Assembly (NCBI RefSeq): GCF_023701345.1
Contig: NZ_JAMPXE010000010.1
Span: 1 to 43,736 of the forward strand
Direction: 5' to 3'
DNA: 43,736 nt
DNA from: Rhodoferax sp.
GTDB lineage: Bacteria; Pseudomonadota; Gammaproteobacteria; Burkholderiales; Burkholderiaceae_C
Shown: positions 1,897 through 21,841 of the stretch, one piece after another
Layout of the letters: every line of letters starts with the position of its first letter
Position numbering within the stretch: the stretch's first letter is position 1
Program-made: the position numbers and the translations under genes
The notes under the pieces: generated by a model
The model's database searches: none
Seen by the model: the letters and a program-made list of their open reading frames with translations, nothing else
Told to the model about the DNA's origin: nothing

Positions 1897-3774
1897 ATGC
1901 CCGCCACGCCCAAGCTCCCGTCCCTGTTAAACAGCCACTTGTCCCGGCAGCGGGTTTTTGCCCAGCTCAGCAGCAAAAGCCGTGAGGCACTGGCGGGCCA
2001 ATTCACACTGGCCAGCGCCACAGCGGGCGCCACCTTGCTGGCGCAAGGCCAGTTGCCAGACCGGCTGGGCCTGATCCTGCATGGCTCGGTACGCCTGAGC
2101 GATCCGGATCTGAATTTGTCGGTGCAGCTCGAAGCAGGTGACCTGTTTGGTTTTGGTGTCACCCCAACGCCGCAATTGGCAACCTGGCAGGCCGTTGCAG
2201 CGGCTGATTGCGAGCTGGCCTGGCTGCCTGCACCGGTCTTGGCGCAGCTGTGTACCAAACATGCCCAACTGGCGTATTTTTTACCGTCCTTACAGCCGTT
2301 GCATCAACCGCCGGCAGAGCAGAACCAGCAGGTCAGCGAATCCAGCACGGCACTGAACCTGCTGGGCACCCCCATCCGCACACTGATCAAGCGCGCGCCC
2401 ATCACCCTTGCCCCCGACGCCTCGATCCAGGCCACCGCGGTGCTGATGCGCGACCTGCGGGTGTCCTCCGTGCTGCTGGTCGAGCAAGGCCTGCTGTTTG
2501 GCCTGGTCACCGACCGCGACCTGCGCAACCGCGTGGTCGCGCTCAACCTGGACATCAGCCGCCCCGTTTCCGACATTGCCACGCTGGCGCCCATGACCGT
2601 GAGCGCCAACAGTCCGGCATTTGAAGCCCTGCTGCTGATGGCGCGCCACAACATCCACCACATGCCGGTGATGGAAGGCGGCAACATCCTGGGCATGATC
2701 ACCGCCACCGACCTGACCGAGCAACACAGCACCTCGGCGGTGTATCTGGCCGGTGACATCTACAAACAAAGCACCCTTGATGGCCTGAAAAGCATCAGCA
2801 CACGGGTCAGGCAACTGCAGCAGAACCTGGCCGCGGCGGACGCCAGCGCCTACAGCACCGGCCACATCATCACCGCCATCACCGATGCCATCACCACCCG
2901 GCTGATCCATCTGGCCGAGGCACAACTGGGGCCCACCCCGGTGGACTACGTCTGGGTGGCGGCCGGCAGCCAGGCACGCAACGAACAAACCGCCAAATCG
3001 GACCAGGACAATTGCCTGATCCTGGACGATGCGTTTGACGAGGCTGCGCACGGCGGGTACTTCAAGGCGTTCAGCAAATTTGTCTGCGACGGCCTGGCCG
3101 AGTGCGGCTACATCCACTGCCCGGGCGACATGATGGCCATGACCGACACCTGGCGCCAGCCGCGCCGGGTCTGGGCCGAGTATTTCCGCAAATGGGTGGA
3201 CAACCCCAAGCCCAAGTCGCTGATGCTGACCTGCGTGTTTTTTGACCTGCGCGCCATCCACGGCCAAGCCGAGCTGCTCGACGGGCTGCGCCAGCAGGTG
3301 GTGCAACACACCAGGGGCAACAGCCTGTTTTTGGCGCACATGGTCAGCAACGCGCTCAAGCACCGGCCACCGCTTGGCATGTTTGGCCAGATCACCCTCA
3401 GCAAGGGCGGCGACAACCCGCGCACCATCGACCTCAAACACACCGGCATCGTGCCGATCGTCGATCTGGCGCGGGTTTATGCACTGGCCGCAGGCGTCAC
3501 GCTGGCCAACACCCATGACCGGCTCGAACTATCGGCGCAGGCCGGTGAGGTGACCGAGCAAAGCGCGCGCGACTTACGCGGCGCACTGGAGTTCCTGGGC
3601 AAGTTGCGTATAGCCCATCAAGCGCGGCAAATGGCGCAGGGCCAGGCGCCTGACAACTTTCTGGCTCTGGAAGAGCTCTCCAATTTTGAGCGCAGCCACC
3701 TCAAGGAGGCCTTCAGCGTGGTGCAAACCCTGCAAGACGTGCTGAGCCAGCGCTATTCGGGCGGACGCTTCTAG
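1897..3774 (+). CDS. cNMP-binding / CBS pair / DUF294 nucleotidyltransferase-like protein (copy 1)
   Basis: A 625-residue predicted cytoplasmic signalling protein. Domains in order: a cyclic-nucleotide-binding-like beta roll at about 15-130, a CBS pair at about 158-273 (RDLRVSSVLLVEQGLLFGLV, then HNIHHMPVMEGG), a GlnD-like nucleotidyltransferase domain (DUF294) with G357-S358 and D369-x-D371, and a DUF294 C-terminal domain to the end. The cNMP roll lacks a recognisable phosphate-binding-cassette arginine, so it may not bind cAMP. In other proteobacteria such proteins often sit beside acetate-uptake genes and are presumed to sense nucleotides or modify a partner; the target is unknown. A paralogue with the same architecture lies at 14301-16121, on the other side of the symporter genes. 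The gene is convergent with the exonuclease fusion, 11 bp away. Confidence 0.88.
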   Translation: MPATPKLPSLLNSHLSRQRVFAQLSSKSREALAGQFTLASATAGATLLAQGQLPDRLGLILHGSVRLSDPDLNLSVQLEAGDLFGFGVTPTPQLATWQAVAAADCELAWLPAPVLAQLCTKHAQLAYFLPSLQPLHQPPAEQNQQVSESSTALNLLGTPIRTLIKRAPITLAPDASIQATAVLMRDLRVSSVLLVEQGLLFGLVTDRDLRNRVVALNLDISRPVSDIATLAPMTVSANSPAFEALLLMARHNIHHMPVMEGGNILGMITATDLTEQHSTSAVYLAGDIYKQSTLDGLKSISTRVRQLQQNLAAADASAYSTGHIITAITDAITTRLIHLAEAQLGPTPVDYVWVAAGSQARNEQTAKSDQDNCLILDDAFDEAAHGGYFKAFSKFVCDGLAECGYIHCPGDMMAMTDTWRQPRRVWAEYFRKWVDNPKPKSLMLTCVFFDLRAIHGQAELLDGLRQQVVQHTRGNSLFLAHMVSNALKHRPPLGMFGQITLSKGGDNPRTIDLKHTGIVPIVDLARVYALAAGVTLANTHDRLELSAQAGEVTEQSARDLRGALEFLGKLRIAHQARQMAQGQAPDNFLALEELSNFERSHLKEAFSVVQTLQDVLSQRYSGGRF

Positions 3775-3785
3775 CCGTCAATCAG

Positions 3786-5960
3786 TCAGTATTTCAAGCG
3801 CGCGTAATAGGTCTTTTGCGCCGCCTCGCGCGCCTGGCGCAGCGTGGTGATGCCCATGGCCTTCAGCAGGGGCAGCAGGCGCAGCCAGACCTCGGCGGTG
3901 ACAATGGCATCGCCCAGCGCGGTGTGGCGCCCCAGCACGGTGATATTGAAGCGCTCGGCAATGGTTTCGAGCCGGTGCGATTCCTGGTTCGGGTGCACCA
4001 CCGCCGACAGCAACAGGGTATCGAGCACCGGATGGTTGAACACCAGGCCGGTGTGGCGCTCCTGAAGCTGCAAAAACTTCATGTCAAAGGCGGCGTTATG
4101 CGCCACCAGCACCGTATCCTGGGCAAAGGTATAAAACGCCGGCAACACCTCGACAATGGGCGGCTTGCCTTTGACCATGTCCTGCGTGATGCCGTGGATC
4201 GTAACCGTCGCAGCCGGGATCAGCCGTCCGGGGTTGACCAGTTGCTCAAAGCTCTCCTGCCGCAACAGCTTGCCATTGACAATGCGCGCCGCACCGATCT
4301 GGATGATCTGATCGCCCTCTGCCGGATTCAGCCCCGTGGTCTCGGTGTCAAAGACGGTGTATGAGAGTTCATTGAGCAGGCGATCATCAAGTTCACGGCT
4401 TTGATCCGTCACTTGAAACAGGTCAAAGTCGTAAAACTCGGGGCGGCTGTCGTTTTGCAGAATCTGCGTGGCTTCCAGTTGTTCCTGCATGCTGGCCATG
4501 GGCAGCAAAAACCGGAAAAACGCCTCGTGGCGCACACGTTCGCGCTCAAACCACATCTCGCCGCCGTGGCGCTCCACCACGTCGCGCACGGTGAGCGGCG
4601 TGCTCTCGTTGCCAAACCGCATGCTGTCCATTTCCCAGCTCATCACGGTCTCGGTGCTCATGGCCTGGCCGGTCCAGATCAAGTCGAGCTGCGCCCGGTT
4701 GCCATTGGACTGCAGTCGCAGCCGGAAAAATTTCACATCAAACTCGTCCGCCAGACGCATCGCCAGATAGTCCAGCGCCTGCGTCAGGCTGAAACTGTCC
4801 ACCTTGAGCCAGACGCTGGCATCCAGGTTTTCCAGCGTCACCGGGCGCTTGCTGCGCGCCTCAATGCGCCGCTGGCTGGCCAGCAGCACGTCGGCCCCCA
4901 TCATTTCTTCCAGCGGCCAACGGGCCTTGAGGCCCTGCGTGGCCTGTTGCGTCATGGTGTTGATACGCGTGCTCATGCTGGTCACCTCTTCACGCACCAC
5001 GGTCAGAAAGCGCTCGCGCATGGGCACCTCCAGATCCGGGTAGGCCAGCATCTCGACAGCGGCCTGAATGTTGGCCAGCGAGGAGCGGCTGCCCTCGGTC
5101 AGGCCATGCAGCAACTGGTCGCGCAAATGCTCTTCCTCAAAAGCCCGGGTCACGTTGTCGAGCATCAGGACAAAGCCACTGATCTCAGTCGCAGCGCCCA
5201 TGGCGTCGACATGGCGCACCGGTGCCATTTGCACCTTGAGCAACTGGCCGGCCTGGGTAGTGGTGACAAACTGGGCAGACGGGCTGCCCGCGCCCCGCTT
5301 GATGCGCTGCTGGATGCTCTCCAGCGCGTGCGCCACCAGTTGCCGGTCGAACACCGCGTAAATGGAGCGCCCGATGCCCATCAGTTCAGCACCACCGGCC
5401 AATGTGGGCGCCACCGACAGGGTTTTGAATTGCAGGCGGGCACGGTTGTTGTACAAGATGATGCGGCCATCCAGATTGCACACCACCACGCTCTGCGTCA
5501 ACTCCGACATCAGCGCCGCCAGACGATTTTTTTCCTGCTGCACGCTCAGACTGGCCTGGGCAATTTGTGTTGCCACATCCTGGCGCAAGCTATCGCGCTG
5601 GGTCGCCAATTGAAAAATCACCTCGGCCAGCGCCTGGGTCTCGGCGGTGCCGCGGTGGTTCATGGGGGCGGCCTGCGGTGCCGCCAGCAAGACCTTGGCT
5701 TGTTCCAGCAGCCGACCCGGCGCACTGGCATAACGCCGAAACAGCCAGCGCAGGGTGGCGCCAATCACCACCAGGCCAAACACCCAGGTCAGGCCGATCA
5801 GGACAAAACGGGGTGCCAGTTGATCCGCCAGCAATGCGCGTTGTTCGGGCGCCAGGGTGGAAGCAATCAAGCCCATCGTCAGCAGCAGCCAGACCACCGT
5901 GGCCAGGCCGATGACAGCAATCGCCAGCAGCAGGCGCCGGTCGATCCTGCGACGGTTCAT
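3786..5960 (-). CDS. Membrane-anchored degenerate histidine kinase fused to DnaQ-like 3'-5' exonuclease
   Basis: A 724-residue protein. Two N-terminal membrane segments (about 9-35 and 50-72) bracket a short loop. A coiled linker and a PAS-like domain (about 145-270) follow, then a histidine-kinase-like core (about 275-490), then a DEDDh exonuclease (about 532-705). The exonuclease looks intact: D538 and E540 in FDTETTGL, D626 in HNAAFD, H679 and D684 in RHTALGDA. The kinase core does not: aligned with the neighbouring kinase, the phospho-acceptor His becomes E289 (TEGSRSSL versus THELRTPL), the N-box asparagines are gone, and there is no DxGxG or GTGLGL box, although HGGEMWFE survives. ATG 5960 overlaps the receiver gene stop as ATGA, so the two are translationally coupled. 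A longer frame extends upstream but merely overlaps the receiver gene. The substrate and role are unknown; it is a predicted regulator of the symporter island, not a replication subunit. Confidence 0.85.
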   Translation of the reverse strand: MNRRRIDRRLLLAIAVIGLATVVWLLLTMGLIASTLAPEQRALLADQLAPRFVLIGLTWVFGLVVIGATLRWLFRRYASAPGRLLEQAKVLLAAPQAAPMNHRGTAETQALAEVIFQLATQRDSLRQDVATQIAQASLSVQQEKNRLAALMSELTQSVVVCNLDGRIILYNNRARLQFKTLSVAPTLAGGAELMGIGRSIYAVFDRQLVAHALESIQQRIKRGAGSPSAQFVTTTQAGQLLKVQMAPVRHVDAMGAATEISGFVLMLDNVTRAFEEEHLRDQLLHGLTEGSRSSLANIQAAVEMLAYPDLEVPMRERFLTVVREEVTSMSTRINTMTQQATQGLKARWPLEEMMGADVLLASQRRIEARSKRPVTLENLDASVWLKVDSFSLTQALDYLAMRLADEFDVKFFRLRLQSNGNRAQLDLIWTGQAMSTETVMSWEMDSMRFGNESTPLTVRDVVERHGGEMWFERERVRHEAFFRFLLPMASMQEQLEATQILQNDSRPEFYDFDLFQVTDQSRELDDRLLNELSYTVFDTETTGLNPAEGDQIIQIGAARIVNGKLLRQESFEQLVNPGRLIPAATVTIHGITQDMVKGKPPIVEVLPAFYTFAQDTVLVAHNAAFDMKFLQLQERHTGLVFNHPVLDTLLLSAVVHPNQESHRLETIAERFNITVLGRHTALGDAIVTAEVWLRLLPLLKAMGITTLRQAREAAQKTYYARLKY

Positions 5961-6331
5961 GCGGCTTTGCCCAGCATCTCTGCCACCTTCTGCACCAGCT
6001 CTCGGGTGGCAAATGGTTTGGTCATGTAGCCATCCGCGCCGAGCGCCAGGCCCTTGGCCACATCGGTGTCGCGGCCCTTGGCAGTCAGCATCAGGATTTT
6101 GGTGGCCTGCACCGCATCCAGGCTGCGCACTTCCTGGCACACCTCAAAACCGGATTTTTTGGGCATCATCACATCCAGCAGCACCAGGTCCGGGAGCTCA
6201 CGGATGATGGCATCCACCGCCTCCTGACCGTCACGCGCAATCACCACGTTGTAGCCTTCGCGCTTGAGCAGGTACTCGAGCGAAATCACAATGTTGGGCT
6301 CATCGTCAGCCACCAGTATTTTCGGACTCAT
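5957..6331 (-). CDS. Stand-alone response-regulator receiver (CheY-like)
   Basis: A 124-residue single receiver domain without any output domain. The acidic pocket is D9-D10, the phospho-acceptor is D53 (LLDVMMP), the switch threonine is T83 and the conserved lysine is K105 (MTKPF). ATG 6331 is preceded by GAGGAG at good spacing; the upstream in-frame ATG lies inside the kinase gene and is not needed. It begins 14 bp after the kinase stop and overlaps the pseudokinase-exonuclease gene by four bases. The likely donor is the histidine kinase encoded immediately upstream. With no DNA-binding domain, it must act through protein contacts or as a phosphate shuttle; the fused exonuclease encoded next is the obvious candidate partner (inference). 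Confidence 0.95.
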   Translation of the reverse strand: MSPKILVADDEPNIVISLEYLLKREGYNVVIARDGQEAVDAIIRELPDLVLLDVMMPKKSGFEVCQEVRSLDAVQATKILMLTAKGRDTDVAKGLALGADGYMTKPFATRELVQKVAEMLGKAA

Positions 6332-6345
6332 CTCGCTCTCCTCTT

Positions 6346-9066
6346 TTATGTTTTGAAGGGCAGATAAAAACAAAACGCCGCCCCCTGCCCATGCTCTGAC
6401 TCCAGCCACAGCCTGCCGCCAAAATGCTCCACGATCTGGCGGCTGATCGGCAGCCCCAGGCCCGTGCCCTGCGGCCGGTTGGCGGCATCGCCACCCTGGC
6501 GGAATTTCTGAAAAATAAGCGCCTGCTGCTCAGCCGATACCCCGGGACCGTTGTCACGCACCATCAGCGTCACGCCGGTATCGTCGCTGCTCAGGCTTAC
6601 ATCAACCCGACCACCAGGCAGCGGCACAAACTTGGCGGCGTTGGAGAGTAAATTCAGCATCACCTGGGTCAGTCGGTCGGGGTCGGCCAGCAACACCAGC
6701 GGATGCTCAGGCACATGGACCTGCACCAGCGTTTGCCGCTCCCGAAACAGCTCCGAGGTGGTCACCACCGCTTGCCGCACGAGCGCGCACAAGTCCACCT
6801 CGGCGTTGTGCCACTCGGCATGGCCCGACTCGATCTTGGCCATGTCGAGCACCTGGTTCACCAGCCTGGACAGGCGTTCGGTCTCGCTGACGATGATGGC
6901 GATGAACTGGCTGCGCCGGGCCTCTTCCATGGCGGGGTCGTCGCGCATCAGCTCGGCCAGCGCCCGAATCGAGGTGAGCGGCGTGCGCAGCTCATGGGTG
7001 ACCGACGACATGAAGTCGTCCTTGAGCCGGTCCAGGCTCTTGAGCTGCTCATTGGCCGTGCGCAACTCGCACGTGGCGCGCTCCAGCGAGGCCGACTTTT
7101 CTTCCAACTCCTGCGAGTGCGCGCGCAACTGCGAGGTTTCGTCCAGAATGCGCAAGACATCGTCTGGCGTCAGGGTTTCTTCTTCGACACTGCTGGCCAC
7201 CAGCACCCGGGCCGAGGCACTGCCGACCGCACCCGCCAACTGGGTTTCAACAAACTGAACCAGACGCGCATCAGGCGTGATGCCGCTCAGACTGCTCGCC
7301 CCCACCTGACGCGCATAGGCCGAAAACAGCGTTTGTGTCCGATCTGACCCCATGAAGCGCTCACACAAGCGCAACAAATCCGGCACCGTGGCGCGACCGC
7401 GCCAAAACACGGGCCGCGCCGTGGTGGTGCGCTCGAACACATCGACAAACAACAGCGCCTGGCTGGCCTCCTGGCCATTGGGCGCACGCCACAGTGACAA
7501 GCCCACATAAGCGCCAATATTGACCAGCAAACTCCAGAACAGCGAATGCGTCAGGTTGTCCAGCCCACGCAGGCCAAACAGCTGCTCGGGCAGCAGCCAA
7601 CTCAAACCCAGCAGGCCCTGGTTCAAAAATACATCAGGTAACCAGCCCGACTTGGCCAGCGACGGCAACATCAGCGTGTAGCACCACATCAGAAACCCTG
7701 CCAGCAAGCCCACCAGCGCACCCTGGCGCGTTGCCCCCTTCCAGTACAGGCCACCCAACACCGCGGGTGCAAACTGGGCCACGGCGGCAAAGCTGATGAG
7801 GCCAATGCTGACCAGGGCATAGGCTTCGCCGGCCAGGTGAAAGTACACATAGCCGAGCACCAGCACGCCCAGAATAGCGGCACGACGGATGACCAGCAGC
7901 ACACGCGTCAAGTCGTGCCCGGCCCCGGATTTGAAATGCCGGGTACGCAGCAACAGCGGCATCACCAGTTCATTGCAGACCATGGTGGAGACCGCAATCG
8001 TCTCCACGATCACCATGCCGGTGGCAGCAGACAAGCCGCCAATGAACGCAAACAAGGCCAGCGCCGGCTGCCCTGCCGCCAGAGGCAATGACAAGACAAA
8101 GTTGTCGGCATTCATCTGCCCCGACCCGAAATACAGCAAGCCGCCCAGGGCAATCGGCAGGACAAACAGATTGATGGCCAGCAGGTAGAGCGGGAACACC
8201 CAGACCGCGCGGCGCAAATGGCTCTCGCGCACATTTTCAACCACCATCACCTGGAACTGGCGCGGCAAAAAGATCACGGACAGCATCGACAGCAGCGTCA
8301 ACGCAAACCACTGTGTCCAGGCAAAGCTGCCGCCCTGTTCCAGCCGCAGCAGTTTGGCCAGGTCGGGCACCGCGTGGGCCCGCGCAAAAACGTCGGCGAG
8401 ACCATTGAACATGCCGTACACCACAAACAGACCCACCGCCAGAAAAGCAATGAGCTTGACCACCGACTCAAAGGCAATGGCCGCCACCAGGCCTTCGTGG
8501 CGCTCCGCCGAATCCAGATGCCGGGCGCCAAACACCATGGTGAACCCGGCCAGCGCCAGGGCCATGTAAAAAGTGCTGTCCTGCGTCCAGTGCGCCTGCG
8601 CGGGCAACTCGCCCAGGGTAGTCGCCGTGAGCAAGCCATAACCGGCAGAAATCGCCTTGAGCTGCAGCGCAATGTAAGGCACGATGCCCACCACGGCAAT
8701 CAGCGTCACCAGCCCGGCCAGCAGCGGGCTTTTGCCGTAGCGGCTGCCAATAAAGTCGGCAATCGAGGTGATGCGGTAAGTCTTGGCAATCCGGATCATC
8801 TTGCGCAGCACCAGCCAGCCCAGCGTCATGGCCAGCGTCGGCCCCAGGTAAATCGGCAAAAACCAGATACCACCCGACGCCGCACGCCCGACGCTGCCAA
8901 AGTAAGTCCAGGCGGTGCAATAGACAGCCAGCGACAGGGAATAGGTCCAGGGGTTGGCAATGATCGAGCGGCCCTGGGCGGCGCGCCAGTCGCCAAAACT
9001 GGCCACGGCAAAGAGCAGCAGCAGGTAAGCGAATGAAGCGCCGACGACCAGCATGGGTGACAGCAT
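6346..9066 (-). CDS. CbrA/CrbS-like sensor histidine kinase with sodium:solute symporter sensor domain
   Basis: A 906-residue membrane kinase. Residues 1 to about 525 form a sodium:solute-symporter-type domain of about 13 helices. A soluble linker with probable STAC-like region (about 555-640) and a coiled coil (645-685) lead to a HisKA domain with H691 in THELRTPL. The ATPase domain has N805/N809, the DNGPG box at 838-842 and GTGLGL at 867-872. Every catalytic box is intact. Related kinases are CbrA of Pseudomonas and CrbS of Vibrio, the latter controlling the acetate switch, so a role in sensing or responding to acetate or a similar carboxylate is likely. No periplasmic sensor domain is present. 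ATG 9066 lies two bases past the stop of the 70-residue membrane-protein gene; an alternative ATG is at 9054. Confidence 0.93.
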   Translation of the reverse strand: MLSPMLVVGASFAYLLLLFAVASFGDWRAAQGRSIIANPWTYSLSLAVYCTAWTYFGSVGRAASGGIWFLPIYLGPTLAMTLGWLVLRKMIRIAKTYRITSIADFIGSRYGKSPLLAGLVTLIAVVGIVPYIALQLKAISAGYGLLTATTLGELPAQAHWTQDSTFYMALALAGFTMVFGARHLDSAERHEGLVAAIAFESVVKLIAFLAVGLFVVYGMFNGLADVFARAHAVPDLAKLLRLEQGGSFAWTQWFALTLLSMLSVIFLPRQFQVMVVENVRESHLRRAVWVFPLYLLAINLFVLPIALGGLLYFGSGQMNADNFVLSLPLAAGQPALALFAFIGGLSAATGMVIVETIAVSTMVCNELVMPLLLRTRHFKSGAGHDLTRVLLVIRRAAILGVLVLGYVYFHLAGEAYALVSIGLISFAAVAQFAPAVLGGLYWKGATRQGALVGLLAGFLMWCYTLMLPSLAKSGWLPDVFLNQGLLGLSWLLPEQLFGLRGLDNLTHSLFWSLLVNIGAYVGLSLWRAPNGQEASQALLFVDVFERTTTARPVFWRGRATVPDLLRLCERFMGSDRTQTLFSAYARQVGASSLSGITPDARLVQFVETQLAGAVGSASARVLVASSVEEETLTPDDVLRILDETSQLRAHSQELEEKSASLERATCELRTANEQLKSLDRLKDDFMSSVTHELRTPLTSIRALAELMRDDPAMEEARRSQFIAIIVSETERLSRLVNQVLDMAKIESGHAEWHNAEVDLCALVRQAVVTTSELFRERQTLVQVHVPEHPLVLLADPDRLTQVMLNLLSNAAKFVPLPGGRVDVSLSSDDTGVTLMVRDNGPGVSAEQQALIFQKFRQGGDAANRPQGTGLGLPISRQIVEHFGGRLWLESEHGQGAAFCFYLPFKT

Positions 9067-9312: not shown

Positions 9313-9666
9313 TCAGGCCTTGCCTTTGAGCCAACTGGCATGGGCATGGCGACTGAGCGCAAAGCTCGCAATGAACTTGCACCAGATGGTGCTGCCGGCA
9401 ATGGCGCTCCAGGTGCTGTAGTCCCAGTAGCCCGCCAGCACGGCAACAATCACACACACGATCACGACCCCGGCGACCAGGTTGATCGCCATTTCATAGG
9501 GGGCAAATTTTTCGGGATTGGCGGGCGCCTCGCCGCGCTTGATGCCGACCTCGGAAAAATCACGGTTCACCACGATGCGCCAGGCCCGGCGCAGCCAGAC
9601 AAAGCTGATTGGAAACAGCGCCAAAAACAAAATCCACGTCATCGCGACGCTGATATCAAACACCAT
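9313..9666 (-). CDS. Unrecognised small membrane protein, first gene of signalling operon
   Basis: A 117-residue protein I cannot assign to a family. It has an N-terminal helix (about 4-22), a basic cytoplasmic-looking stretch, a second helix (about 65-85) and a weaker hydrophobic segment near 90-105. ATG 9666 is chosen because GGAG lies seven bases upstream; an in-frame TTG at 9684 lies further from any ribosome-binding site. It sits 31 bp upstream of the 70-residue membrane-protein gene on the same strand and only 24 bp downstream of the terminator-like hairpin that ends the symporter operon. Its position suggests a membrane partner of the kinase or of a symporter; nothing in the sequence shows a catalytic role. 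Confidence 0.7.
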   Translation of the reverse strand: MVFDISVAMTWILFLALFPISFVWLRRAWRIVVNRDFSEVGIKRGEAPANPEKFAPYEMAINLVAGVVIVCVIVAVLAGYWDYSTWSAIAGSTIWCKFIASFALSRHAHASWLKGKA

Positions 9667-9687
9667 TTTCCAACTCCAGTTCAATTA

Positions 9688-9778: not shown

Positions 9779-11584
9779 TTAGTGGGCACCGTCCACCAGC
9801 TTGGAACCACGCGGCACACGCACCGATTCCACCATGTGCTGAATGTGCTCGGGTGGTTCGGGGGTGACTTTGTCCACAGCGAAAGCCACAGCAAAGTTCA
9901 CCAGCGCGCCAATGGCACCGAAAGCTTCAGGCGTGATGCCGAAGAAGGGGTTGGCGCCACCAATCAGGGGCAGGAAGTCCGTGCCCTTGATGAAGAAGAT
10001 GCCCTTGTGCGCAAACACATAGAACAAGGTCACGAACAGGCCCGCCAGCATACCGGCCATGGCGCCCTCCTTGTTCATTTTCTTGCTGAAAATACCCATC
10101 ATGATCGCAGGGAACAGCGAAGACGCGGCAATACCGAAGGCCAGCGCCACGGTACCGGCGGCAAACCCTGGCGGATTCAGACCCAACCAACCCGAAATCA
10201 CAATCGCCACCGCCATGGCAATCTTGCCTGCCAGCAGTTCGCCCTTCTCGGAAATATCAGGAACAAAAATGTTCTTGATCAGGTCGTGGGATACCGCAGC
10301 AGAAATAGCCATCAGCAAACCCGCCGCCGTGGACAGCGCAGCAGCCAGGCCACCGGCAGCCACCAGACCGATCACCCAGTTGGGCAACAACGCAATTTCA
10401 GGGTTGGCCAACACAATAATGTCAGCGTTCACTGTCAGCTCATTGCCCTTCCAGCCCGCAGCGGTCGCTTTGGCTTTGGCAGCTTCATTCTTGGTTGCGT
10501 CGTTGTAGTACTGGATGCGGCCGTCGCCATTCTTGTCTTCAAACTTCAGCAGACCGGTTTTTTCCCAGCGCTTCATCCAGTCAGGACGGGTTTCGGCCTG
10601 AATGCTGGCTTCTGGTGCGTACAAGTCACCCCCCTTGACCACAGCGGTATTCACGGTGGAATGCAGGTTCAACTTGGCCATGGCCGCCACAGCAGGTGCC
10701 GTGGTGTACAGAATGGCAATGAACACCAGGGCCCAACCGGCGCTGGAACGTGCGTCTTTCACGGTAGGCACCGTGAAGAATCGCATGATGACGTGAGGCA
10801 AGCCCGCGGTACCAATCATCAATGACATGGTGTAGACAAACATGTTCAGTGTGCTACCCGCCGTGGTGGTGGTGTATTTGCCAAAACCCAGGTCAGTCAC
10901 AACGCCGTCCAGCTTGGCCAGCAAAGACATGTCAGTGCCTGTCAGCGTACCACCCAGTCCCAACTGCGGCAGGAAATTGCCGGTGAGTTGCAGCGAGATG
11001 AAGATCGCCGGAATGGTGTACGCCAGAATCAGCACGATGTATTGCGCCACCTGGGTGTAGGTGATGCCCTTCATGCCGCCGAACACGGCGTACAAAAACA
11101 CGATGCCCATACCGACATAAATGCCGACATCGCTTGACACACCCAGGAAACGCGAGAACGCCACACCCACACCGGTCATCTGACCAATGATGTAAGTGAG
11201 AGAGGCGGTCAGCAGGCAGATCACGGCGATCATGCTGGCACCCTTGGAGTAGAAGCGGTCACCAATGAACTGCGGCACGGTGAATTTACCGAACTTGCGC
11301 AGGTACGGTGCCAGCAACATGGCCAGCAGCACATAGCCGCCGGTCCAGCCCATCAGGAACAGGCCGCCGCCATAACCCATGTTGGCGATCAGGCCGGCCA
11401 TGGAGATGAAGGACGCCGCACTCATCCAGTCGGCGCCTGTGGCCATGCCATTGAGCACCGGGTGCACCGAGCCGCCCGCAGAATAAAACTCACTGGTGGT
11501 ACCGGCACGTGCCCAGACGGCAATACCGATGTAGAGCGCAAAGCTCAAGCCCACCATGATGTAGATTGTGGTTTGAAGATCCAT
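9779..11584 (-). CDS. Sodium:solute symporter, VC_2705 subfamily, large subunit
   Basis: A 601-residue polytopic inner-membrane symporter of the SSS family, probably importing acetate or another monocarboxylate with a cation. The start (residues 1-60, with SEFYSAGGSVHPVLNGMATG and DWMSAASFISMAG) and the helix GTAGLPHVIMRFFTVP match the ActP/VC_2705 branch. A soluble insert at about 305-390 interrupts the helices and carries an EF-hand-like loop, D350-K-N352-G-D354-G-R-I, with N361 at the last ligand position. The family pairs with a small DUF4212 subunit, whose gene lies 10 bp upstream here. Transcription runs from the divergent control region at 11856-12168 and ends at the hairpin at 9688-9720. 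Confidence 0.92.
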   Translation of the reverse strand: MDLQTTIYIMVGLSFALYIGIAVWARAGTTSEFYSAGGSVHPVLNGMATGADWMSAASFISMAGLIANMGYGGGLFLMGWTGGYVLLAMLLAPYLRKFGKFTVPQFIGDRFYSKGASMIAVICLLTASLTYIIGQMTGVGVAFSRFLGVSSDVGIYVGMGIVFLYAVFGGMKGITYTQVAQYIVLILAYTIPAIFISLQLTGNFLPQLGLGGTLTGTDMSLLAKLDGVVTDLGFGKYTTTTAGSTLNMFVYTMSLMIGTAGLPHVIMRFFTVPTVKDARSSAGWALVFIAILYTTAPAVAAMAKLNLHSTVNTAVVKGGDLYAPEASIQAETRPDWMKRWEKTGLLKFEDKNGDGRIQYYNDATKNEAAKAKATAAGWKGNELTVNADIIVLANPEIALLPNWVIGLVAAGGLAAALSTAAGLLMAISAAVSHDLIKNIFVPDISEKGELLAGKIAMAVAIVISGWLGLNPPGFAAGTVALAFGIAASSLFPAIMMGIFSKKMNKEGAMAGMLAGLFVTLFYVFAHKGIFFIKGTDFLPLIGGANPFFGITPEAFGAIGALVNFAVAFAVDKVTPEPPEHIQHMVESVRVPRGSKLVDGAH

Positions 11585-12168: not shown

Positions 12169-12477
12169 ATGCAAGATGATTTGATACAAAGGGTTGTCAG
12201 CAACCCCCAATACCAGGAGCTCAAGCGCAAGCGAAGCAGCTTTGGCTGGACGCTGACCTGGGCCATGATGATCGTTTACTACGGCTTCATCATGCTGGTG
12301 GCGTTCAACAAGGAATTTCTGTCGCAAAAACTCGGTGCAGGCGTCATGACCATTGGCGTGCCCATTGGTTTTGGCGTGATTGTGTTCACCGTCATCATCA
12401 CCACCATTTACGTCCGTCGCGCCAACCGCGAATACGACGACCTGACTGCCGCCATCACCAAGGCGGTTTTGAAATGA
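12169..12477 (+). CDS. DUF485 membrane protein (YjcH-like)
   Basis: A 102-residue protein of the DUF485 family, with two helices (about 27-45 and 58-82), the typical N-terminal motif [16 protein letters not shown] and a charged C-terminus. The E. coli equivalent yjcH lies between acs and actP, and the family accompanies ActP almost invariably, presumably as a small subunit or assembly partner. ATG 12169 is preceded by GAGGAG. The stop overlaps the actP start as ATGA, so the two are translationally coupled. Confidence 0.93.
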
Positions 12478-14198
12478 CAACTACAAATACAAACAAGCGC
12501 CTGCTCGCGCTGATCTCGCTGCTCGCTGTTTCCGCTGGTGCATTGGCTGCCGGTGCCGATCTGGGTCAGGCTGTCCAACAACCGACCAACTGGACCGCCA
12601 TCGGCATGTTCGCCGCCTTTGTCGTCTTCACGCTGTTCATCACCAAATGGGCAGCCGCCAAGACCAAATCTGCGGCCGACTTCTACACCGCGGGTGGCGG
12701 CATCACCGGTTTCCAGAATGGTCTGGCAATTGCCGGCGACTACATGTCGGCCGCTTCCTTCCTGGGTATTTCCGCCGCCGTGATGGCCAGCGGCTTTGAC
12801 GGCCTGATCTACTCCATCGGCTTCCTGGTGGGCTGGCCTGTGATCACCTTCCTGATGGCCGAGCGCCTGCGTAACCTGGGCAAGTTCACTTTTGCCGACG
12901 TGGCAGCGTTCCGCTTCGAGCAAAAACCTGTGCGTATCTTTGCAGCCTCGGGCACGCTGGTGGTGGTGGCGTTCTATCTGATCGCCCAGATGGTCGGCGC
13001 CGGTCAGCTGATCAAACTGTTGTTTGGTCTTGAGTACTATATGGCGGTGATCATTGTGGGCGCGTTGATGATGGTGTACGTGCTGTTTGGCGGCATGACC
13101 GCCACCACCTGGGTGCAGATCATCAAGGCCTGCCTGCTACTGGGTGGCGCCACCTTCATGTCCTTGTCGGTGTTGTGGCACTTTGGTTTCAGCTTTGAAG
13201 CCATGTTCGCCGGCGCCGTCCAGATCAAGACCGATCTGGCATTGAAAGACGGCAAGATTGCCGAAGTCGCCGCGGCCGCTGGCCAGTCCATCATGGGCCC
13301 GGGCAACTTTGTCAAAGACCCGATCTCGGCGATCAGCTTCGGCATGGCGCTGATGTTCGGTACCGCTGGCTTGCCACACATCCTGATGCGCTTCTTCACG
13401 GTGCCTAGCGCCAAGGCTGCGCGCTCCTCTGTGATGTGGGCCACCGGCTGGATTGGTTACTTTTACCTGTTGACCTTCATCATCGGCTTTGGCGCGATCA
13501 CCTTTGTGCTGACCAACCCAGAGTTCCTGGATGCCAAGGGCGCTCTCAAAGGCGGCGGCAACATGGCGGCTATTCACCTGGCCAACGCCGTGGGCGGCAA
13601 CGTGTTCCTGGGCTTCATCTCGGCGGTGGCCTTTGCGACCATCCTGGCGGTAGTGGCTGGTTTGACGCTGTCTGGTGCATCGGCTGTGTCTCACGACATC
13701 TATGCCACCGTGATCAAAAAGGGCAAGGCCAACAGTGCCGACGAGCTGCGCATCTCGAAAATCACCACCATCTGTCTTGGCATTCTGGCTGTGACACTGG
13801 GCATCGTGTTTGAGAAGCAGAACATCGCGTTCATGGTCTCTCTGGCCTTCGCGATTGCCGCTTCGGCCAACTTCCCTGTGCTGTTCATGTCGGTGCTTTG
13901 GAAAGACTGCACCACCAAGGGCGCCGTGATTGGCGGCTTCCTGGGCCTGATCTCTTCCGTGGCATTGACGGTGGTGTCGCCGTCAGTTTGGGAAGCCACG
14001 CTGGGCAACCCCAAGGGCTCGGCGCTGTTCCCCTACACCTCGCCGGCCCTGTTCTCAATGGCGATTGGTTTCATCGGCATCTGGCTCTTCTCGATACTTG
14101 ATAACAGCGCCCGTGCCAGGCAGGACCGCGCGGGTTTCCTGGCGCAACAAGTGCGTTCGGAGACCGGCATTGGTGCTGACGGCGCGTCAGGACATTGA
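12474..14198 (+). CDS. actP: Cation/acetate symporter ActP
   Basis: A 574-residue sodium:solute symporter of the ActP branch, importing acetate and related short carboxylates with a cation. The N-terminus (to about residue 25, ending ALAAGA) resembles the cleavable signal peptide of E. coli ActP, followed by about 13 membrane helices. Diagnostic stretches are [49 protein letters not shown] and [21 protein letters not shown] loop at about 250-285 is typical for the family. It overlaps the DUF485 gene by four bases and ends in an intrinsic terminator. No acs gene is present in this window. Confidence 0.95.
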
Positions 14199-14250
14199 TG
14201 TAAACAGCGTGTATCGCTGCCCCTGCGGGTGGCGATGCGATAAGCTCAAG

Positions 14251-14283
14251 GGGCTGCAGGCAAGGTGTCTGCAGCCCTTTTTT
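14251..14283 (+). terminator. Intrinsic terminator after actP
   Basis: A perfect 9-bp stem, GGGCTGCAG (14251-14259) with CTGCAGCCC (14269-14277) around a 9-base loop, runs straight into six T residues. It ends 17 bp before the next start codon, so the following gene either has read-through expression or a promoter inside this short gap. Confidence 0.93.
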
Positions 14284-14300
14284 ATCTTCAGAAGGTGATC

Positions 14301-16121
14301 GTGTCCGACGACTTTGCATTCGATACAGCACCCTTTAACGAACTCACCTCGACCGAGCGAACGCTGTTGCAGGAACTTGCGCTAACGACCCGCCATCGAC
14401 CAGGTGCGGCAATTCTGTTGCCCCATACTGACCACCCGCAGTTCTTGTGGGTGATGCACAGCGGCCATGTGCAGCAGGAAGACATGGGGCAAGTCCATGT
14501 TTTGGGTGCTGGCGAATCATTCAATTGGCGCGGGTTGCTTACCGGACACAACCAGGCCACCGTGACGGCCCTTGATGAGGTGCAGTTATGGCAGCTGCCC
14601 AAAGAAACCCTGATGCACTTGCTGGCCGACAATGCCCGCTTCAGCGCCAAAGTGTTCAGTGAGGTCGCCGGCCATCTCGCAGACGACCAGGGGATGGACC
14701 AGCACCGTGAATTGCTGTCACTGATGCTGGTGCGCGTCAGGGATGCCTACCTGCAAAAGCCTTTTTATGTGGACGGCCGGCTTGATCTGGTGTCGGTTTG
14801 CCGCCTGCTGTCCGAGCACAAAACAGGCAATGCGCTGGTTCGCGATGAGAAGGATGGCGTTGAGCGCATCGGCATGTTCACCACCACCGACCTGCGCGAT
14901 GCCCTGCTGCAGCCGACGCCGCCGGCACAACTGGCGGTGCGCGAGGTGGCCCGCTTTGACCTGGTCACCGTCGCCCCGGAAGCCGAGCTCTTTGATGCGC
15001 TGCTGATCATGCTGCGGCACCGGGTGCACCGGGTGCTGGTGAAAGATGGCGACACCATCGTGGGTGTGCTGAGCCAGCTCGACCTGATGAGCTTCATGTC
15101 GAACCACTCGCACCTGATCACGCTGCAGGTGGAGCAGGCCCACAGCGTGGCCGAACTGCAAGTGGCGGCCCTGCAAGTGGACGACACCATCAAACTGCTG
15201 CAACGTGGCGGTATGCGCATCGAGATCATCTCCAGGCTGGTCAGTGAGCTCAACAGCCAGATATTCGCCCGCCTGTGGGCATTGCTGGCACCGCCCGAAC
15301 TGGTACAAAACAGTTGCCTGCTGGTGATGGGCAGCGAGGGTCGCAGCGAGCAAATTCTGAAAACCGACCAGGACAATGCGCTGCTGCTGCGCGACGGCTA
15401 CCAACACCCTGATTTGTCCGGGGTCACCCGACAGTTCAGTGCCGCGTTGCTGGACTTTGGTTACCCGCCCTGCCCCGGTAACATCATGGTGACCAATCCG
15501 ATGTGGTGTCAAAACCTTGGCGCCTTCAGGCAGACCATTGGCCAGTGGCTGTATGGTGCTGACCCCGAAGGCCAGATGCATCTGGCCATTTTCATGGATG
15601 CCCGCGCCGTCGCAGGTGATGCCGCGCTGTTGCTGAACGCGCGCGACTTCGCGCTCACCATGGCCATTGGCAGCGATACCTTTATCAGCCGTCTGGCCAG
15701 TGCCATTGACCAATTCCAGGAACCCGGCAACGCCTGGTGGAACCGTTTGCCCTTGCTGCAAAGCCGCGAGGCTGAAACTTTTGACCTGAAGAAAATCGGC
15801 AGCTTCCCGATCGTGCATGGCGCGCGCGCACTGGCGCTGGAATACCGCCTGGAAGCCCTAGGCACGGTGGATCGATTGCAGGTTTTGGCCAATCTCCAGA
15901 TCCTGCCCGCCACACTGGTGCGCGACCTGGTTGAGACGCTGCACATGCTGATGACGCTCAAGCTGCGCAACAATCTGCGCCAACGCGCACTGGGGCAAGC
16001 CATCAGCAACCAGGTTGAGCTGAACAGCCTGGGCACCCTGGAGCGGGACCAGCTCACCGATGCCCTGGGCATCATCCGTCAGTTCAAGCAATTTTTACGA
16101 CGCCACTATCACCTGGAGTAG
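14301..16121 (+). CDS. cNMP-binding / CBS pair / DUF294 nucleotidyltransferase-like protein (copy 2)
   Basis: A 606-residue paralogue of the protein encoded at 1897-3774. Order: cNMP-like roll (about 10-125), CBS pair (about 150-268), DUF294 nucleotidyltransferase with G344-S345 and D356-x-D358, and the DUF294 C-terminal domain (about 440-600). The start is GTG 14301, with GAAGG five bases upstream. A longer frame reaches back to 14265, but that would start inside the actP terminator. Such proteins are frequent neighbours of acetate permease genes and are presumed to regulate uptake or activation according to nucleotide signals; no target is proven here. It converges with selD, 15 bp away. 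Confidence 0.88.
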   Translation: MSDDFAFDTAPFNELTSTERTLLQELALTTRHRPGAAILLPHTDHPQFLWVMHSGHVQQEDMGQVHVLGAGESFNWRGLLTGHNQATVTALDEVQLWQLPKETLMHLLADNARFSAKVFSEVAGHLADDQGMDQHRELLSLMLVRVRDAYLQKPFYVDGRLDLVSVCRLLSEHKTGNALVRDEKDGVERIGMFTTTDLRDALLQPTPPAQLAVREVARFDLVTVAPEAELFDALLIMLRHRVHRVLVKDGDTIVGVLSQLDLMSFMSNHSHLITLQVEQAHSVAELQVAALQVDDTIKLLQRGGMRIEIISRLVSELNSQIFARLWALLAPPELVQNSCLLVMGSEGRSEQILKTDQDNALLLRDGYQHPDLSGVTRQFSAALLDFGYPPCPGNIMVTNPMWCQNLGAFRQTIGQWLYGADPEGQMHLAIFMDARAVAGDAALLLNARDFALTMAIGSDTFISRLASAIDQFQEPGNAWWNRLPLLQSREAETFDLKKIGSFPIVHGARALALEYRLEALGTVDRLQVLANLQILPATLVRDLVETLHMLMTLKLRNNLRQRALGQAISNQVELNSLGTLERDQLTDALGIIRQFKQFLRRHYHLE

Positions 16122-19600: not shown

Positions 19601-21841
19601 TCAAGCCGCAGCCAGCGCCTTCACCTTCAGCCGCCAGCCATGCAGCAGCGGCTCGGTGTAACCGCTGGGCTGCGCCAGGCCCTTGAACACCAGGTCACAG
19701 GCGGCCTGATACGCCATGCTGGTGCCAAAGTGGCCGGCCATCGGCTGGTAGAGCGGGTCACCGGCGTTCTGGGCGTCGACCACGGCGGCCATGCGCTCGA
19801 AGGTTTCCTTCACCTGCGCTTCGGTCACCACGCCATGGTGCAGCCAGTTGGCCATGTGCTGGCTGGAAATGCGCAGCGTGGCGCGGTCTTCCATCAGGGC
19901 GATGTTGTGAATGTCGGGCACCTTGGAGCAGCCCACGCCCTGGTCGACCCAGCGCACCACGTAGCCCAGAATACCCTGCGCGTTGTTGTCGAGCTCCTGC
20001 TGTTTCTCGGCAGCGCTCCAGTTCGGGCTGGCGGCAACGGGAATGGTCAACAGGCCGGTCAGCAGGGTCTCGCGCTGCTTGTCGGCGTTGATTTTTTCCA
20101 GCTCCTTTTGCACATCCTTCACCAGCACCTGGTGGTAGTGCAGCGCGTGCAGCGTGGCACCGGTCGGGCTCGGCACCCAGGCGGTGTTGGCGCCGGCTTT
20201 GGGGTGGCCAATTTTTTGCTCCAGCATGGCCTTCATGAGGTCGGGCATGGCCCACATGCCCTTGCCGATTTGCGCCTTGCCGCGCAGGCCGCAGCCCAGG
20301 CCCACCAGCACATTGTTGCGCTCGTAGGCGGCAATCCAGGCGCTGCTCTTCATGTCGCCCTTGCGGATCATCGGGCCGGCCTGCATGGCGCTGTGCATCT
20401 CGTCGCCGGTGCGGTCCAGGAAGCCGGTGTTGATGAACGCCACACGGCTGGCGGCGGCGGCAATGCAGGCTTTCAGGTTGACGCTGGTGCGGCGCTCTTC
20501 GTCCATGATGCCGAGTTTGACGGTGCTGTCCGGCAGGCCCAGCATGCCTTCGACGCGGCCAAACAGCTCGCTGGCAAAAGCCACTTCTGCCGGGCCGTGC
20601 ATCTTGGGTTTGACGATGTAGACCGAGCCCTTGCGCGAGTTGCGGATGGCGTCCTTTTTGGTCTTGGCGAGGTCGTGCATGGCGATTGCTGTGGTGACCA
20701 CGGCATCCAGAATGCCCTCGGGGATTTCGCGCGTGACGCCCTGCTTGTCGGTGTACAGGATGGCCGGGTTCGTCATCAGGTGGCCGACATTGCGCACAAA
20801 CATCAGCGAGCGGCCATGCAGGCGCACCGACTTTTTGCCATCCGGCGCGGTGTAGACGCGGTCGGCATTGAGGCCGCGGGTGAAGGTCTTGTCGCCCTTG
20901 GCGACTTCTTCGGTCAGCGTGCCCTGCAAAATACCAAGCCAGTTGCTGTAGGCCAGCACCTTGTCGTCGGCGTCCACGGCGGCTACCGAGTCTTCAAGGT
21001 CAAGGATAGTGGACAGGGCCGCTTCCAGTACCAGGTCGGACACGCCGGCCGGGTCTTTGGCACCGATGGGCGTGGCGCGGTTGATGATCAGGTCCAGGTG
21101 CAAGCCGTTGTGCTCAAACAGAACGCTTGAGGGCGCCTTGGCGTCGCCCTGGTAACCCACCAGCCGGTCGGCATCCGCCAGGCTGGTGTTGCTGCCGTCA
21201 GCCAGTTGGACGGCCAGTTTGCCGCCCTTGATGCGGTAGCCCACCGAGTCCACATGCGAGCCCTTGCGCAGCGGCGCGCAACGGTCGAGCACATGGCGCG
21301 CATAGGCAATCACCTTGGCGCCACGCTTGGGGTTGTAGCCGCGGCCGACTTTTTCGCAACCCTTGGCCTCGTCAATCACATCGGTGCCGTAAAGCGCGTC
21401 GTACAAGGAGCCCCAGCGCGAGTTGGCGGCGTTGAGCGCGTAACGCGCGTTCAGGATCGGCACCACCAGCTGCGGGCCGGCCTGCCTGGCCAGCTCGGCG
21501 TCCACGTTCGAGGTGGTGATGCGGGCCTTTTTGGGCTGCTCGACCAGGTAGCCAATGCGCTCCAGGAAGGCACGGTAGTTCGTCATGTCCGAGGGCTTGG
21601 AAGGATCACCTGCGGTGATGGGGCCGGGGTTGGCCTTGTGCCAGCCATCAAGCTCGGTCTGCAGGCGGTCGCGCTCGGCCAGCAGGGCGATGTTTTTCGG
21701 CGCCAGGTCGGCCACGATGGCGCCAAAACCTTTCCAGAATTTGGCGGGTGCCACGCCGGTGCCGGGCAGCACCCGGGTTTCAATGAATTGGCACAGGTTG
21801 GCCGCGATTTGCAGGCCGTTTTTGGTGATGCGTTCAGTCAT
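19601..21841 (-). CDS. glcB: Malate synthase G
   Basis: A 746-residue single-chain malate synthase of the G type, condensing glyoxylate with acetyl-CoA to malate in the cytoplasm. Diagnostic segments include [16 protein letters not shown] (arginine that binds glyoxylate), [18 protein letters not shown] (acidic Mg site), and [18 protein letters not shown] carrying the catalytic aspartate near the C-terminus. E. coli GlcB is 723 residues. ATG 21841 lies 36 bp downstream of the haloacid dehalogenase-like stop on the same strand, so the two probably form an operon; no strong ribosome-binding site is visible. The enzyme links naturally to the acetate-uptake island in the first 16 kb. Confidence 0.96.

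Follow-up and report, generated by a model that had tools for sequence, protein, structure and literature searches.

The stretch of DNA analyzed here (the window) comprises 43,736 nucleotides and is one contig of a 3.42-Mb draft genome of a Rhodoferax species. At 3786..5960, on the minus strand, it carries a single open frame for a protein of 724 residues, in which membrane helices, a PAS domain, a histidine-kinase fold without catalytic boxes and an intact DEDDh exonuclease follow one another in this order. The start codon of this gene sits within the stop codon of the preceding one (ATGA overlap), which encodes a stand-alone receiver (5957..6331, minus strand; Response_reg, 100.5 bits) with intact phospho-acceptor D53 and lysine K105. 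Further upstream on the same strand come a symporter-type histidine kinase of 906 residues (6346..9066), a small ORF (9313..9684) and a sodium/solute symporter of the VC_2705 family (9779..11584; TIGR03648, 811 bits with a cut-off of 320.75). On the other side, convergent with the fusion gene, lies a gene on the plus strand (1897..3774) for a protein with cNMP-binding, CBS and DUF294 nucleotidyltransferase domains, as assigned by Pfam.

The symporter-type kinase matches both HisKA and HATPase_c, in line with an earlier note on this DNA that had described the neighboring kinase as intact. Its membrane part matches the PDB entry 10ed_A, a 'histidine kinase', with 338 bits; SSF was matched in 9 of 18 relatives and not in the window member itself. 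A symporter-like membrane domain is thus joined to HisKA/HATPase_c, as in the SLC5/STAC kinases, and Pfam detects no receiver domain in the window protein. The small ORF, which adjoins the symporter in many relatives, has no match in Pfam or NCBIfam; it is a putative DUF4212 protein. The region 12474-16121 (plus strand) encodes another symporter (SSF, 392 bits) together with a separate cNMP-binding/CBS/DUF294 protein (14265-16121); no exonuclease or kinase adjoins them. Malate synthase G, an enzyme of the glyoxylate shunt, is encoded at 19601-21841 on the minus strand, which fits an acetate-related region. Gene context and the literature on related systems together suggest that the locus is linked to carboxylates.

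Architecture of the fusion protein

The first membrane helix of the fusion is predicted by AF2 at residues 8-35 (5856..5939; this and the following domains are all on the minus strand), and a second long helix spans residues 38-93 in the same model. The PAS-like domain (residues about 154-270; 5151..5501) is indicated by a sub-threshold PAS_4 match, by WalK PAS chains in a PDB profile search and by AF2. It is followed by a helical hairpin corresponding to the DHp domain of histidine kinases (residues 271-339; 4944..5150), delineated by AF2 and alignments, and by a HATPase-like domain corresponding to CA (residues 350-490; 4491..4913), so that the overall fold of a HisKA/HATPase_c core is retained. 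The earlier note had proposed that a pseudokinase is fused to an intact exonuclease, and this is borne out in one continuous frame, which rules out a frameshift or two separate proteins at 3786-5960. Broken copies do occur elsewhere: one locus (L044) splits into two frames, and in another (L206, one species) the receiver and the pseudokinase are kept while the exonuclease part is broken.

The exonuclease domain (residues 531-701; 3858..4370) has an RNase H-like fold with all five catalytic residues, D538, E540, D626, H679 and D684, in place, and these are intact in 219 of 222 loci. The protein scores 115.8 bits with TIGR01406 (dnaQ_proteo), the equivalog for the replicative Pol III epsilon subunit, below the cut-off of 222.7, and it differs from the PolC and DnaQ-type DEDDh exonucleases in being membrane-anchored and in carrying a PAS domain and a pseudokinase. 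We consider it a putative membrane-anchored 3'-5' exonuclease of the DEDDh type. A role in defense was considered and rejected, as PADLOC matches the fusion only with generic DEDDh models and the neighborhood is metabolic.

In the hairpin, alignment to VicK and DivL places E289 (5094-5096) at the position of the phospho-histidine. Histidine was found here in none of the 167 full-length loci with usable flanks, which, being best or hand-picked matches, could miss a rare case; hence, the homologue with an intact kinase that the earlier note had regarded as contrary evidence did not come to light. The 167 loci have Glu in 119 and Asp in 22 cases; among the 141 of them that are linked to a receiver, Glu occurs in 111, Asp in 18 and P, T, A, Q, I or M in the remaining 12. 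The N-box Asn, the G1 Asp and the GxGxG motif of the G2 box are absent from the window protein, where, by the alignment on which the assignment of boxes in CA is based, R402 and W429 are found instead. Asn is present at position 402 in 5 of 167 full-length loci, and Trp takes the place of the adenine-binding Asp at position 429 in 165 of 167. Judged by these residues, the core is not an active histidine kinase of the HisKA/HATPase_c type. The suggestion of the earlier note that Glu could mimic phospho-histidine is not supported as a general rule: the residue at position 289 varies, and it is R292 (5085-5087) that follows the receiver.

Distribution and gene neighborhood

Among the matches listed (the best 80 of 579 confirmed stretches), the closest relatives, at 94%, are from Rhodoferax, and others come from Beta-, Gamma- and Alphaproteobacteria, Desulfuromonadales, SAR324 and one Nitrospirae record. 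Of 398 genomes drawn from the phylum, 39, the genome of origin included, have a match that covers 634 or more of the 710 positions. The pseudokinase-exonuclease is a conserved family.

The loci compared are best or hand-picked matches, and the presence of a receiver was scored at the adjacent gene, by domain coordinates and stop-to-stop frames. Of 222 loci, 209 were usable for the comparison of architectures, 13 with a short upstream region and no receiver seen being left out, as were 7 such rows in an earlier comparison of 130 loci. The full architecture is accompanied by an adjacent receiver in 141 loci and not in 26. Where the DHp hairpin is deleted, a receiver adjoins the gene in one locus and not in 5; among proteins that consist of the membrane region, PAS and exonuclease without the kinase part, it does so in one (L207, cut by a contig end) and not in 27; and in fusions of the exonuclease to DUF294 it does so in 0 of 5. 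Three partial proteins (class F), none with an adjacent receiver, were excluded from the comparison. Since the 27 kinase-less proteins keep the membrane region, PAS and exonuclease, the kinase core appears to be dispensable to the basic enzyme. The kinase-less proteins L123-L126 and L209-L228 belong mostly to one alphaproteobacteria-like family group (f55) and lie beside DUF294 genes.

Neighbor counts, made on loci whose flanks each extend for 2 kb or more, reveal two patterns. A gene for a symporter-type kinase lies no more than 3.5 kb away in 51/56 full-length loci that have a receiver, in 0/19 full-length loci that lack one and in 0/24 kinase-less loci; the corresponding figures for the DUF294 protein are 33/56, 14/19 and 24/24. 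The survey of homologous neighborhoods that the earlier note had called for thus links receiver and symporter-kinase to the full-length form, and it brings out a recurrent partner, the DUF294 protein, that this note had missed. The association goes as far as gene fusion: in five loci (L117, L118, L119, L120 and L122) RNase_T, CBS and both DUF294 domains are found in a single frame, and in a locus of the kinase-less class (L121) the exonuclease ORF overlaps the DUF294 ORF. On the evidence of neighborhood and gene fusion, the DUF294 nucleotidyltransferase is likely to be a recurrent partner of the exonuclease. Both the receiver and the DUF294 protein look active, as judged from the conservation of D53 (141/142) and K105 (142/142) in the aligned receivers and of the motif residues G357 and S358 (130/130), D369 (131/131), D371 (130/131) and D450 (140/140) in the nucleotidyltransferase.

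Residues that follow the receiver

When full-length loci with and without an adjacent receiver are compared, three residues of the kinase-like core stand out. R292 is present in 139/141 loci with a receiver vs 15/26 without (Fisher p 1e-8), W470 in 141/141 vs 5/26 (p 2.6e-22) and E325 in 136/141 vs 14/26. R292 had been spotted by eye, and W470 was chosen by a scan of all columns. In the full-length loci fetched later (L137 and above), R292 occurs in 53/54 vs 3/5 and W470 in 54/54 vs 2/5, the receiver-less loci being as few as five. Of the two tryptophans of the HATPase-like domain, W470 follows the receiver and W429 does not.

A regional control was made at 70% non-redundancy with 49 receiver-linked and 16 receiver-less rows, conservation being averaged over the columns that are conserved in the receiver-linked proteins. 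From the receiver-linked to the receiver-less set, the mean changes from 0.93 to 0.91 in the exonuclease, from 0.92 to 0.91 in PAS and from 0.93 to 0.89 in the linker, whereas it falls from 0.90 to 0.41 in helix 1 of DHp (5 columns), from 0.90 to 0.31 in helix 2 (2 columns) and from 0.93 to 0.71 in CA; the coil before PAS also falls, from 0.93 to 0.75 (3 columns). As conservation of the exonuclease and PAS holds while that of DHp and CA declines, the receiver-less proteins are not simply fast-evolving.

Shared ancestry was taken into account with a tree built by a quick method from the PAS and exonuclease columns of 153 rows, 20 near-identical ones of 173 having been removed. The tree contains 13 changes of receiver state and yields 8 independent supported pairs. 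W470 changes with the receiver in 7.1 pairs and never in the opposite sense (median p 0.016); the two figures are 4.9 and 0 for R292 (median p 0.0625, not significant alone), 3.5 and 0 for E325 (median p 0.25), and 4.2 and 0.2 for the presence of Glu or Asp at position 289, which tracks the receiver loosely (median p 0.125). For the control residue W429 the figures are 1.0 and 0.4 (median p 1). From a smaller tree 5 pairs could be drawn, which is not enough for testing. The receiver, the symporter-kinase and the putative docking residues are inherited together.

A possible reader of the receiver, and known systems

The best-supported reading of these data, to which we assign a probability of roughly 0.6, is that the histidine-kinase core of the fusion has been converted from a transmitter into a reader that would work in the manner of DivL. 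The symporter-kinase would sense or transport a small carboxylate and, as gene order and intact boxes suggest, phosphorylate the stand-alone receiver at D53. The phosphorylated receiver would bind the hairpin around R292, as DivK~P does on DivL, and the change may be relayed via the Trp-rich HATPase-like domain to the putative exonuclease, switching the nuclease, which would work together with the DUF294 nucleotidyltransferase. This reading is favored by the tracking of the receiver by R292, W470 and E325, by the linked inheritance of the genes, by the alignment of R292 with R553 of DivL and by the receiver being mostly absent where the kinase or DHp part is lost. Against it stand the 26 full-length loci in which the kinase-like module persists although no receiver adjoins it, 15 of them still with R292, and the occurrence of DUF294 within 3.5 kb in just 33 of the 56 full receiver-linked loci. 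The notion of a membrane-tethered nuclease whose kinase-like scaffold works with the receiver, put forward in the earlier note, accordingly gains comparative support from the receiver dependence of R292 and W470 and from the distribution of the symporter-kinase.

The kinase-like region could, instead, be a mere dimerization and spacing scaffold, with PAS and the membrane part controlling the nuclease and the receiver acting on some other target. The 27 kinase-less proteins, with the membrane region and PAS still attached to the exonuclease, speak for such an arrangement, as does the equal conservation of PAS with and without a receiver; a pure scaffold, however, would not require R292 and W470 only where a receiver gene exists, and we regard this explanation as unlikely. 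What has been lost together with the receiver is also the symporter-kinase, so that decay of DHp could follow the loss of the kinase and not that of the receiver. The hairpin might then contact the symporter-kinase in a hetero-oligomer, the receiver being a bystander inherited with the kinase. This joint retention and loss notwithstanding, the top tracking positions include R292, which belongs to the receiver-docking face in DivL, and the overlap of start and stop codons ties the receiver gene to the fusion itself; a hetero-oligomer of this kind appears quite improbable.

The loss of every kinase box is also what one would expect of a decaying former kinase that had been fused to a housekeeping repair exonuclease and had no signaling role, yet the DEDDh residues and W429 are almost invariably kept and the neighborhood is conserved across classes, which makes mere decay very hard to believe. 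Residual catalysis via another phospho-acceptor or nucleotide site, with which the retained fold would be compatible, is scarcely credible for a core without an N-box, G1 Asp or G2 box, in which Trp replaces the adenine-binding Asp almost throughout.

Returning to the DivL-like reader, the partnership with a nucleotidyltransferase suggests that the exonuclease removes a tail or a mark, and the two enzymes may act on a shared substrate. A more far-reaching and on balance doubtful extension is that the dead kinase reads the phosphosignal and the exonuclease strips nucleotides that the DUF294 protein adds to the 3' end of an RNA or to a protein, so that a reversible nucleotidyl mark at the membrane would tune carboxylate uptake and metabolism post-transcriptionally. 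In the available text of the respective papers, DUF294_C is grouped with the C-terminal domains of GlnD and GlnE (PMC3710099), and the CBS/nucleotidyltransferase protein Pflu5625 of P. fluorescens is reported to have no mutant phenotype (PMC5715377).

Receiver-reading pseudo-histidine kinases have so far been based mainly on DivL. If the proposed reading is correct, the fusion would be a second, widespread one, in which the reader is joined to an enzyme and the output could be measured with purified proteins; it would represent a two-component system with cleavage of nucleic acids or nucleotides as its output, and it would explain the presence of an exonuclease gene in acetate and pyruvate loci and tie it to the uncharacterized DUF294 nucleotidyltransferases. 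No description of a pseudokinase-exonuclease fusion or of such a pseudokinase switch was found in the open-licence papers searched. Novelty, which the earlier note had considered possible, would therefore concern the switch and not the exonuclease as such, since a putative exonuclease under an acetate system has already been published. This is PP_0353 of P. putida, which matches RNase_T and forms an operon with the CBS-domain gene PP_0354; the operon is among the targets of MxtR/ErdR, an acetate system, ErdR being reported to bind the promoter region of PP_0354. PP_0353 is reported as necessary for growth on pyruvate, with its deletion affecting growth on this substrate and not on acetate, and the authors speculate on mRNA degradation (PMC9927547, as far as the text consulted goes). 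Compared by description only, PP_0353 resembles the fusion as a putative exonuclease of the RNase_T family with a CBS partner, controlled by a symporter-type kinase system and linked to carboxylates; it differs in that the control described in that text is transcriptional and no pseudokinase is described there. The genes PA3232-PA3235 are reported to rise on propionate (PMC9765439). The SLC5/STAC kinases CrbS, CbrA and RpuS, of acetate or pyruvate systems, share a symporter-like domain joined to a histidine kinase (PMC9100948, PMC5436829, by the portions available); CrbS is described as a hybrid kinase that itself includes a receiver domain, whereas the kinase in the window has a stand-alone receiver next door.

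The closest parallel is Caulobacter DivL, for which the accessible part of PMC4211667 reports a lack of kinase and phosphatase activity, disruption of DivK binding by R553A and not by Y550H, and the frequent absence of DHp-CA from DivL in alphaproteobacteria without DivK. In the HMMER alignment (DivL numbering per that paper), E289 corresponds to Tyr550 and R292 to Arg553. Both proteins thus combine a histidine-kinase core that has no His at the acceptor position with an arginine kept three residues on and with inheritance linked to a single-domain receiver, and in both the kinase core is often gone where the receiver partner is absent. They part company in that DivL, by the same account, has Tyr at the acceptor position, keeps the N, G1, F and G2 boxes and signals to CckA; the fusion, which is not a DivL proper, has Glu there, has lost all boxes and would deliver its output through the exonuclease to which it is fused.
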